A DNA stretch of 64,000 nucleotides from Beverwykella pulmonaria (taxonomy: Eukaryota > Ascomycota > Dothideomycetes > Pleosporales > Melanommataceae): the NCBI GenBank assembly GCA_001599595.1, contig BCHH01000003.1, forward strand, positions 1,858,263 through 1,922,262, given 5' to 3'. Numbering within the stretch: position 1 is the stretch's first letter; each line of letters begins with the position of its first letter. The translations under genes and the position numbers were made by a program. Of this stretch, positions 379-29,848 are shown piece by piece. The notes beneath the pieces are model-generated. The model worked only from the letters and a program-made list of their open reading frames with translations, ran no database searches and was not told the DNA's origin.

Positions 379-2125
379 TTACGTCCCCACCACCGTGATC
401 CAGCATCCAACATTCCTAATCCCCAATCGAAGTGTTCGTAACAGACAAAGATTCTGAGCACTGCGTTCATATTAGCGCCTATACAAACTGGCCTAACACA
501 GAAGGCAGAGGGACACAACATACAGTCTAAAGCTTCAAGTCCAACATGTTAGTGCTTAGATCAAACAAGTTGCCAAGGGAGGCGAAGAGGCACGACTTAC
601 ACACTAAAGCGCCAGACCCACCATATCAGCGCCTATACCAAACCAGTCGGCTATAAAGTCGAAGGAAAACCACTTACAACCTAAAGTGCCAGGCCAAACA
701 TATTAGTATCTATATCAAACTAGCCGGCTACAAAATTCAAAGAAACATCACTTACTCTCTAGAATACCGGACCCAGCATGTCAGCGCATATACTAAGCCA
801 GCCTGCTAACGAAGGCAGAAGAACGACACTTACAGACTAAATCGCCAGACCCAGCATGTCAGCGCCTATATCAAACCAGCTCGCCACAGAGGGTAGAGTG
901 AAGCTACTTACAGACTAAAGTGCCAGGCCCATTATGTTAGTATTAATATCAAATAGTTTGCCACAATAGGTCAGGGAGGTCTACTTACACCCTTAAGAGC
1001 CAGACACAGCATATTAGTGCCTGCACAACCTAGTCCGCCACAGAGGGCAAAGGGACGCTACTTACACCCTAAGCTAGCATGTCAGCACTTATATCAAATA
1101 GTTTGCTGCAAGAGATCAGGGAGGACCACTTACACCCTAAAGCGCCAGACCCAGTACATTAGCGCCTGTACCAACCTAGCCTGCTAAAAGTGGCAAAAGG
1201 ACACCACTTACAGGCTGGAGCGCCAGGTTAGCATATTACTGCTTATTGAAACCAGTCCTGCTATAGAAATTATAGGGACACTACTTACTAACTAGAACGC
1301 CAGACCCAGCATGTCAGCACCTACCCTAATAGGCGAAGGGACACCACTTACGGGCTATATCACCAGACCCAACATATCAGTGACTAGACCAACCTAGCCC
1401 GCCATAGAGGGTAATGGGACACCACTTACAAACTAAAGAGCCAGGCCCAGCTTGTTAGTCTCTATATCCAAACAGTCCTCTACAGAACATTAATAGAATA
1501 ACTTACATCCTAAAGTGCCAGATCCAGCAAATCAGCGCTTAGACCAAGGCAGGCGGCCACAGAATCCGAAGAGAGGCCACTTACATACTAAAGCGTTAGA
1601 CCTAGCGTGTTAGTGCATGCAGTACACTAAATAAACTTGCTATGAAAGGTGAAGGGACGTTACTTACACACTAAAGCGCCAGACCCAGCATATCAGTAGC
1701 TGCAGTACACCCAAAAATCCCACTATAGGAGGTGAAGGGACACCACTTACTTGCTAGAACGCCAGAGCCAACATATTAGCATATATACCAGGCCAGTCAA
1801 AGATACACCACTTACTTTCTAAAGAGCCAGACCCAGAATATCAGCACCTATATCAGATAGTGTGCCATATAAGGCATAGGGGCACTACTCACACCCTAAA
1901 CTAGCATGTCAGTGCCTGTATCGAAGTCTTTGCTACGAAAGGGAAGGAAGGACCACTTACACCCTAAAACACCAGACTCATCATATCAGTGTCTACATTG
2001 AAAGAGCCCGCAACGGAAGGTGAAGGGACCGCACTTACAGCCCTTTCTTTAATACCATTGTCAGGAGTAGGTGCTGCAGCTGCGATGGCAGCGAAGAAGC
2101 CTACTAGTAGAATTTTGGCGTTCAT
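379..2125 (-). CDS. Secreted small protein gene made of twenty single-codon (3-nt) micro-exons
   Basis: Exon 1 (2125-2039, 87 nt) encodes 29 residues: a signal peptide (MNAKILLVGFFAAIAAAA) and a short propeptide ending KERA. Twenty exons of exactly 3 nt follow, all phase 0, at 1963-1961, 1895-1893, 1818-1816, 1753-1751, 1670-1668, 1587-1585, 1509-1507, 1432-1430, 1354-1352, 1291-1289, 1214-1212, 1136-1134, 1068-1066, 991-989, 914-912, 836-834, 758-756, 680-678, 603-601 and 526-524. In order they encode G, G, K, Q, C, Y, D, F, P, L, P, G, G, G, S, S, R, V, C, T. None is a stop. The last exon (453-379) adds 24 residues and TAA. The product would be 73 aa with four Cys after the signal peptide, like a small secreted cysteine protein or effector. 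No family is recognised. One long intron 2038-454 would also be in frame (53 aa), so RNA data must decide. Splice signals are described under the intron array. Confidence 0.7.
454..2038 (-). repeat. Array of 21 homologous introns (60-80 nt) separated by 3-nt exons
   Basis: Read on the minus strand, each unit is an intron starting GTAAGT (19 of 21; the others GTGAGT at 1892 and GTATGT at 523). It carries a branch-like CTGAC/CTGAT/CTAAT about 20 nt before the end and finishes in a CTTTAG-, CTAG- or similar AG. Lengths in order are 75, 65, 74, 62, 80, 80, 75, 74, 75, 60, 74, 75, 65, 74, 74, 75, 75, 75, 74, 74 and 70. The introns are clearly related: a core like GGCGCTGACATGCTGGGTCT recurs with point changes, whereas the triplet between AG and GT differs from unit to unit. 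This resembles introner-like elements or tandem duplication of an intron-plus-codon unit. It is not a simple minisatellite, because splice motifs are the best-kept parts and codons the least. Confidence 0.8.
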
Positions 2126-28000: not shown

Positions 28001-29848
28001 GCATCTACCTCTGCTGCCTCTACCGCCACTTCCACTAGAAAGCGCAAGAGATGAGATTTAACTAACTTAAATGCAGCATGAAATCACAAACTTATTGATA
28101 GCAACCTGCGACAATCTCATATCCTTCCGCAAGGATCCACTAGAACTAGGAAACTGTTACAAAGAAATAGCAGCTTCTATATCACCAAGTACTAGTTAAC
28201 CTTCGTCGCCGCCCTATTAAGAGGAACCAAAACACAATTTTATTAAAGTCAGCTGCCACCAGAGCCAATATCCTACAAGGAGGCAATGAAGCTCCCTTAT
28301 CTACACAACCAAGGATTCCTTGCAGCTGCTCAACGCAAGATCAGCACAATCCAGCGCAAAGGGACATATACAAAGATAGCGTAGAAAGACTTCAATGCTA
28401 ATGAACACAAAGTTCTCCTGATGATGTGGAGATTCACACACAAGCTTAACAGTAAAAGATATCTCACTAATTACAAAGCTAGGATCTGTGTGCGCGGCAA
28501 CCTCCAGACTACCACTAAAGACACATATACAGCCACATTAGCTATTCAAACCTTCTAAGCCGTGATGGCTATCGCAGCTCATTTCAATCTGGAGATGAGA
28601 CACTACAACGCTGTTAACGCATTTACCAACGCTTAATTAGAAACGCCCGTCTACTGCCACGCACCAGACAGCTTCTCCAACCCTAACCACTTATGGGAGC
28701 TGCACCGCGCGCTATATAGCCTCAAGATATCACCACTACTATAGTACAAGGACCTTACTAAGTCACTCAAGGAGCTAGGGCTCAAAGAAGTCAAAGAAGC
28801 TCCGTGCCTGTGGATGAACAACAAGCTACTGGTATTTTTCTACGTGGATAATATTATTGTCCTTGTCAAACTAGGTCATACACAAGTCATTAAACAGTTT
28901 GAACAAAAGCTCCTGCAGTGATATAAGATTAGATGCTTAGGAGAATTGACCACCTTCTGCAGAATTTAAATTTGACGCAACTAAGAAGCGGGAAAGATAT
29001 AGCTATCACAAGCTGCTTATATCAACAAACTAGTGCTTAAATTCCCGCCACCAAAGCCTATCAAAGCTTCAACACCACTACCGCTTGAGGAACTGCTTCC
29101 GTCACCAAAACAGACAGAAAATGAAGCCAATATTACTCACTACGGTCAGCTAGTTGGATCAATCGGACACGCTGCGGAAGTTACTCGGCCCGATATCGCA
29201 AAAGCATATTCCAAGCTTGCCGAATTCTTGATCAATCCGTCGCAGCAACATATCGACGCCGCATATCACGTGATCGCATACCTTGGTCAGACACGTGATC
29301 GGTCACTGTGCTATAATGCATCAGTATCAACTGACTCAGCCTATATCGCCAACCGCGAAGAACCCGACTTCTTTGGAGCCTCAGACGCATTATATGCTGA
29401 TGACAAGGCCACGCGCAAAAGCTCACAAGGGTATATCTTCTTCCTATTTGGCGGTCCTATCGACTGGAAAGCGACGCTGCAGCGCTGTGTCACCAAATCA
29501 ACCACCAAATCCAAACTAATCGCTGCATCATCAGCCGGCACTAAATTGATATGGTGGTGGAGACTATTCAAATCCATCAGATTCGAGCTTGACAATGAGC
29601 AACTGCTATACTGCGACAATCAACAGACAATTCAATTGCTAAAAGAAGCTTCTCCGCGTCTCAAAACCAAACTACGGCACGTCAATATCCATCATCACTG
29701 GCTTTGTCAAGAGGTTCAAAACAATCAAATCAATCTTGCATATATCCAGACCAATAGTCAACCAGCTGACGGTCTTACAAAGCTGTTGCCGAGACAAAGG
29801 CATGAACACTGGGTATCCCTTTTGCATTTTGAGGATTTCCCATTATAA
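25028..29848 (+). pseudogene. copia gag-pol, stop-riddled
   Basis: ATG 25028 starts gag, with the first stop at W18 (TGG to TAG). Open blocks then show gag (NKPEKPPRPTAVP, TNIKDWCDAFLAAYNRAKLLK), a C-x-C and H-x-x-x-x-C knuckle relic near 25870-25915, a protease-like LDLATDIHI, and the integrase core (YVFHGFDLFTKF, then IIADDERGYG and TKEQNSSAERSGKNLIE). Reverse transcriptase follows (YKARICVRGNLQTT, then FYVDNIIVLV with YVDN for YVDD). RNase H and the C-terminus (29033-29848) are intact for 271 codons, including THYGQLVGSIGHAAEVTRPD, TKSTTKSKLIAASSAGTKL and QPADGLTKLLP. Nearly all stops are TAG and explained by G-to-A at Trp or C-to-T at Gln codons. Confidence 0.85.

Follow-up and report, generated by a model that had tools for sequence, protein, structure and literature searches.

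Putative secreted-protein genes of a fungus in which long runs of predicted exons consist of a single codon each

A gene on the minus strand of the window (the whole 64-kb stretch of DNA analysed here) has a signal-peptide-like first exon, after which 21 introns alternate with 20 exons of one codon each and a short last exon closes the gene. The 45.6-Mb genome (31 contigs) contains at least seven more such genes, with 22 to 88 single-codon exons apiece; the observation is thus larger than the first-pass annotation, which described the window gene alone, had seen. These are very probably real genes whose transcripts would be spliced intron by intron and whose arrays would have grown by tandem duplication of an intron-plus-codon unit. 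The evidence is the sequence of one genome. If transcripts confirm the reading, entire protein domains are built from single-codon exons, up to 88 of them consecutively, and the genes would both test the closest spacing at which two introns can still be spliced and show gene growth residue by residue without frameshifts.

Anatomy of the window gene

The first exon has 29 codons and the boundary GCT/GTAAGT; as the first-pass annotation had it, it ends in phase 0 at a GTAAGT. That annotation also claimed an uninterrupted run of one-codon exons, and this was confirmed: all 20 inter-intron exons are exactly 3 nt long and in phase 0, and none is a stop (0/20). Their codons and coordinates are given in Table 1. 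The introns are 60-80 nt long (n=21; the last is 63 nt). Their donors are GTAAGT (19), GTGAGT (1) and GTATGT (1), and their acceptors TAG (18), CAG (2) and AAG (1). The start of the last exon has two candidate acceptors. The one at 461 is the first AG past the branch point and gives a last exon of 14 codons and a predicted mature part with three Cys; the one at 454 gives 24 codons and four Cys. The 24-codon exon and four Cys described earlier therefore hold with acceptor 454 and not with acceptor 461.

Table 1. Coordinates of the window gene and of the seven further genes
Feature	Position	Strand	Comment
TATA-like box TATATAAA	2240..2247	-	about 115 nt upstream of ATG; putative role
Exon 1, signal-peptide-like start and short propeptide MNAKILLVGFFAAIAAAAPTPDNGIKERA	2039..2125	-	ends in phase 0; assigned by eye
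Array, 21 introns (60-80 nt) and 20 single-codon exons, GGKQCYDFPLPGGGSSRVCT	461..2038	-	last acceptor 461
Codon exon 1, GGT	1961..1963	-	
Codon exon 2, GGT	1893..1895	-	
Codon exon 3, AAA	1816..1818	-	
Codon exon 4, CAA	1751..1753	-	
Codon exon 5, TGT	1668..1670	-	
Codon exon 6, TAT	1585..1587	-	
Codon exon 7, GAT	1507..1509	-	
Codon exon 8, TTT	1430..1432	-	
Codon exon 9, CCC	1352..1354	-	
Codon exon 10, TTA	1289..1291	-	
Codon exon 11, CCT	1212..1214	-	
Codon exon 12, GGT	1134..1136	-	
Codon exon 13, GGT	1066..1068	-	
Codon exon 14, GGT	989..991	-	
Codon exon 15, TCT	912..914	-	
Codon exon 16, TCT	834..836	-	
Codon exon 17, AGA	756..758	-	
Codon exon 18, GTT	678..680	-	
Codon exon 19, TGT	601..603	-	
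Codon exon 20, ACT	524..526	-	
Last exon, version A, CSESLSVTNTSIGD and stop	416..460	-	acceptor 461
Last exon, version B (alternative to A), 24 codons and stop	379..453	-	acceptor 454
C1 gene	2.44 Mb; C1:2435566-2441588	-	83 single-codon exons; glycine-rich repeat protein
C2 gene	2.67 Mb		37 single-codon exons
C3a gene	168-175 kb		88 single-codon exons
C3b gene	184-190 kb		80 single-codon exons
C5 gene	2.40 Mb		22 single-codon exons
C15a gene	33-39 kb		44 and at least 12 single-codon exons
C15b gene	445-449 kb		55 single-codon exons

Seven further genes in the genome

A genome search with TTTAGNNNGTAAGT gave clusters elsewhere, and further patterns together with a DNA search gave the seven genes. 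In the eight genes 442 internal exons were read, of which 441 are 3 nt long, without a single stop, and one is 4 nt (in C15a, at the zero-length site described below). The seven share one intron family with median lengths of 66-69 nt; the first intron of the C1 gene has a GC donor. Exon 1 is also alike in all seven, with MKFL.LF.ML...LP...RQ and variants (six were aligned with that of the window gene, C15a was compared by eye). A stop codon, TAA or TGA, opens the last exon in six of these genes, and CCA TAG opens that of C15b, so that beyond exon 1 the predicted family proteins are written one codon per exon (in C15b, all but one), and a product lacking the array would hold little beyond the signal and propeptide.

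Conserved sequence also flanks the arrays. TATATAA lies 109-122 nt upstream of the ATG in seven of the eight genes, and C2 has TATAAG. Each of the seven family genes is followed by a 3' element of about 100 nt (for example C3:190058-190177) with the hairpin-like core GGTTTCAGCTCAGGCCGG, one base of which differs in C5; all seven genome candidates at E up to 1 are these, with none elsewhere. The element folds as a hairpin, yet changes on both sides were seen in just 2 of 26 pairs, and an RNA structure is not claimed. Rfam gave no match at the two loci searched.

In C3a, C3b and C15a the stretch between exon 1 and the first codon corresponds to two intron units. About 60 nt past the end of exon 1 it contains a zero-length exon, CAG directly before GTWAGY, which resembles a recursive splice site. 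Such sites occur once per gene, in the first intron, and in these three genes only.

The window gene differs from the seven in its intron sequence, in exon 1 and at the 3' end. Either it separated early from the others, then, or the build arose twice. Comparison of its introns with those of the seven for common ancestry gave shuffle z values of 1.2 to 4.5 on consensus sequences.

Counts of the bare patterns are by themselves no proof of arrays: CAGNNNGTAAGT had 473 genome matches vs 318 for its reversed control, with array units making up 276 of the 473, and TAGNNNGTAAGT had 302 vs 414, with array units making up 122 of the 302. Inspection of these matches covered 100 places for each pattern, so small arrays of another sequence type may be missed. 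A full genome listing of TTTAG, TTCTAG or TCGTGGTGCAG followed by a codon and GTAAGT held no ninth locus. Decayed short clusters of the same units are present on C11 near 578 kb, C8 near 1417 kb and C18 near 141 kb, and one of the three appears, by eye, to be split by other DNA. A dispersed repeat of about 300 bases lies upstream of the C2 gene (C2:2666600-2666910), with more than 30 copies over the genome among the matches listed. It swamped the DNA search with the C2 region, which added nothing else among the 40 of 152 candidates that were scored.

Splice signals and intron bodies

The introns of the window gene are diverged copies of one another, with a mean pairwise identity of 0.70. Agreement with their consensus (20 of the 21, the short last intron omitted) is 0.99 at the donor, 0.98 at the C, T and A of the branch motif and 1.00 at the AG, vs 0.70 in the non-signal columns. 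Over the eight genes, non-signal columns agree with their own consensus at 0.70-0.81, and mean intron identity inside an array is 0.70-0.78. Donors deviate at 31 of 2274 sites in seven genes (counted over all genes except C15a, leaving aside the last intron of the window gene and the first and last introns of the others), a figure that is partly by construction because the finder accepts a donor only when 5 or more of its 6 bases fit the consensus (the limit being looser in C2).

The units follow one another with next to nothing in between. Of the seven genes checked (all except C15a, with C3a and C3b counted from the second donor), six have every intron within 1.5 times the median length, and selective reporting of good units is therefore an unlikely cause of the regularity. 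The exception is C2, where one unit without the usual acceptor was treated as skipped, giving a double intron of 141 nt.

The chain finder links introns (donor, branch motif and AG) through 3-nt exons and reports chains that score about three introns or more. It found no chain on either strand of 20 Markov-1 random sequences, each 64 kb long, nor in the window outside the gene, and all 12 genomic stretches free of arrays were likewise negative. Of the three relic stretches, one gave no chain and the other two gave chains of four and three introns.

Coding signal in the triplets

The strongest indication that the triplets are translated comes from one pair of paralogues. When the last 26 units of C3b and C15a are compared in register, 16 of 26 amino acids are identical and the codon bases agree at 0.77, vs 2-6 amino acids and 0.30-0.51 at 18 shifted registers. 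The introns of the same units agree at 0.771 in register vs 0.680-0.730 shifted. The codons are thus kept in register while the introns barely are, and the triplets behave as coding sequence. Drift has carried the introns of this pair most of the distance to the background of the arrays, with some register signal remaining, while the codons stayed. C3a and C3b, compared over 9 units, point in the same direction (3 of 9 amino acids in register vs 0-2 shifted); judged on these alignments, the register test is strong for C3b and C15a only and weak for C3a and C3b.

The absence of stops from the 441 codons, where base composition predicts about 4.6 (P about 0.009), is a supporting but modest result, since 319 of them end in T and cannot be stops. 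The remaining third positions are A in 74, C in 39 and G in 9. ATG and TGG are absent from the 441 codons and NAG occurs once; the rarity of codons ending in G could mean that a second acceptor within the exon is avoided. In one ordinary ORF of the window the third positions are close to even.

Probable growth of the arrays

Twelve runs of at least three units are near-identical (identity at least 0.88) to another run and have the look of recent copies. Units 56-60 and 61-65 of C1 have introns 94% identical and spell GGREG twice. Units 47-50 and 50-53 of C15b (95%) spell TGIS and SGIT, and units 2-5 and 14-17 of C3b (93%) spell GLPT and GLPG. In 2 of the 12 runs the codons differ strongly, with matches at 3 and at 5 of the 9 bases. 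Among unit pairs with similar introns, codon identity is 0.848 vs 0.961 for the introns (22 pairs), and in the next bin 0.656 vs 0.911 (130 pairs), the pairs in both bins not being independent. Divergence of codons beyond that of introns fits diversification of the residues after copying, but it would also fit weak coding constraint. Copying of this kind adds whole codons, so the frame cannot shift.

Proposed mechanism and alternative explanations

Each gene would be transcribed into a single long pre-mRNA, in which every 60-80 nt intron would be recognised alone, by the donor, branch point and acceptor that it carries, and the ordinary spliceosome would take it out. Because neighbouring splice sites are 3 nt apart and could hardly both be occupied at once, adjacent introns would probably be excised in succession rather than together. 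Joining of the 3-nt exons would yield a short mRNA, each of them supplying a single codon of the mature peptide. The arrays would have grown by tandem duplication of the intron-plus-codon unit, one at a time or several together; every copy would add whole residues in frame, and the new codons would then mutate. Unit-by-unit reading was proposed in the first-pass annotation and now draws on splice signals kept amid diverged intron bodies, on the seven further genes and on codon conservation in one paralogue pair.

Instead, the whole array might be excised as one intron, perhaps stepwise by recursive splicing, with the triplets left untranslated. The reading frame would still be kept across the junction of exon 1 with the last exon, and the zero-length CAG/GT site about 60 nt past exon 1 in C3a, C3b and C15a resembles a recursive site. 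The product would, however, stop right after exon 1 in six of the seven family genes, and the codons surpass the introns in register conservation and contain no stop in 441. Classical recursive sites also have nothing between AG and GT, whereas here there are 3 nt in 441 of 442 cases. Excision of the array as a single intron is for these reasons very improbable. Slightly less so, yet still improbable, is the repeated insertion of introner-like elements into ordinary genes, between codons and perhaps with duplication of 3 bp at the target. Such elements are reported from Dothideomycetes (PMC4457414), and the array introns are alike (mean identity 0.70-0.78). Against this, insertion should not produce a spacing of 3 nt in 441 of 442 cases, and near-identical blocks of several units are visible. 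A search with the C15b array gave 22 matches, all 22 of them in arrays or in the three relic clusters, with no dispersed single copies. That the arrays are non-coding satellites or decayed genes that mimic introns is scarcely credible: relic clusters do exist on C11, C8 and C18, but donor, branch point and acceptor are kept in nearly every unit (one C2 unit lacks the acceptor), and the arrays stand behind TATA-like boxes and similar first exons, seven of them ending at a common 3' element.

A different question is what purpose unit-by-unit splicing might serve. Exons of 3 nt in phase 0 preserve the frame when any set of them is skipped, which holds for 441 of the 442 internal exons, and splice sites 3 nt apart should ease skipping; the C2 unit without the usual acceptor, with its 141-nt double intron, may be a case in point. 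The arrays could on this account exist for variety, with exon skipping making a peptide library from each locus. In-register codon conservation (in one paralogue pair) and the well-kept splice signals suggest one main product instead, and variety as the purpose is unlikely. Under the preferred reading, of genes spliced intron by intron and grown by unit duplication, the unit of protein evolution could be one codon in an intron-bounded cassette, by which residues are gained, lost, copied, edited without frameshift and maybe skipped. We put this forward tentatively, as somewhat less than an even chance; if it is true, new secreted peptides are composed residue by residue.

Relation to known systems

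Known micro-exons are mostly several codons long, and the exons of aphid bicycle genes are longer than 3 nt. The micro-exon genes (MEGs) of schistosomes encode secreted proteins and have many very short exons in multiples of 3. The fungal genes resemble them in encoding putative secreted proteins and in having many tiny exons in multiples of three (441 of 442 being 3 nt); they differ in that each internal exon is one codon long and in that their introns are tandem copies of each other. For the two proteins of the eight that were searched in the protein database, those of C3b (E up to 1) and of the window gene (E up to 10), no homologue was found.

Aphid bicycle genes are summarised as fast-evolving putative effectors with many small internal exons of one phase and about 17 exons on average, and the megacycle gene as having more than 100 microexons (PMC9168663). 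As described there, these are animal genes with internal exons almost all in phase 2, whereas the fungal arrays are in phase 0 with exons of 3 nt. Exons of a single nucleotide are reported in Arabidopsis APC11 (PMC4674806) and, with read support, in Fusarium CYP621A (PMC12940212). By these accounts the spliceosome, that of a fungus included, joins exons shorter than 3 nt, although APC11 and CYP621A each have one tiny exon in an ordinary gene, compared with the runs of 20-88 found here. Very short exons as functional units are likewise described for Drosophila homothorax, with a single 3-bp exon that is alternatively spliced (PMC7392893), and for Xlr2 of the filamentous fungus Trichoderma, with an alternatively spliced micro-exon (PMC11121469); as reported, there is one per gene, unlike the arrays.

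Families of similar spliceosomal introns within one genome are described as introner-like elements in Dothideomycetes (PMC4457414). According to that account they multiply into many genes, whereas the array introns stand in tandem, 3 nt apart, in eight genes. The stwintrons of Hypoxylaceae are also presented as similar fungal introns in unusual arrangements (PMC8469720); they are introns within introns, whereas each array intron is complete and separated from the next by a codon. The first-pass annotation had called the build one not met before, and likewise no gene with a run of single-codon exons was found in the open-access literature searched, mostly at abstract level. In that literature genes of more than 100 micro-exons are already known, from the aphid megacycle gene, and it is for runs of single codons that no precedent was found.

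Predicted proteins

The products are putative secreted proteins, the signal peptides having been assigned by eye in the aligned first exons of the window gene and six family genes and in C15a, viewed separately. The claim that the window gene encodes a small secreted protein with central residues each set by its own intron-bounded unit is supported to that extent, with both splicing and secretion predicted. The mature parts vary widely, being cysteine-rich, glycine-rich or hydrophobic, which would fit secreted proteins pressed to diversify. The predicted mature part of the window gene contains cysteines, and the C5 protein reads DCIGDQCYGRCPLDQYGNCCGC. The predicted proteins of C3a, C3b and C15a are hydrophobic with a common FCA...KC-like end. 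The C2 protein has, by eye, a cystine-knot-like spacing, with a Pfam E of 0.027, below the family cut-off, and a PDB E of 0.46.

The spliced C3b protein had no match in the protein database at E up to 1, and that of the window gene none at E up to 10. A protein of the window used as a control matched Pleosporales (best identity 90% in Melanomma and 89% in Pleomassaria). Five proteins gave nothing above the curated cut-off in Pfam (best E 0.017 and 0.027), and two gave nothing below E 0.46 in PDB. Viral contigs scanned with a pattern yielded 95 stretches; the 80 listed held one match each, and these were taken as chance.

In the seven arrays measured, introns make up about 96% of the length of each. 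With this share, and with two proteins unmatched in a database that contains Pleosporales, gene finders probably miss such genes. Elsewhere in the window, on the plus strand at 29033-29848, lies an ORF without a Pfam match that resembles the end of a copia-type retrotransposon polyprotein.
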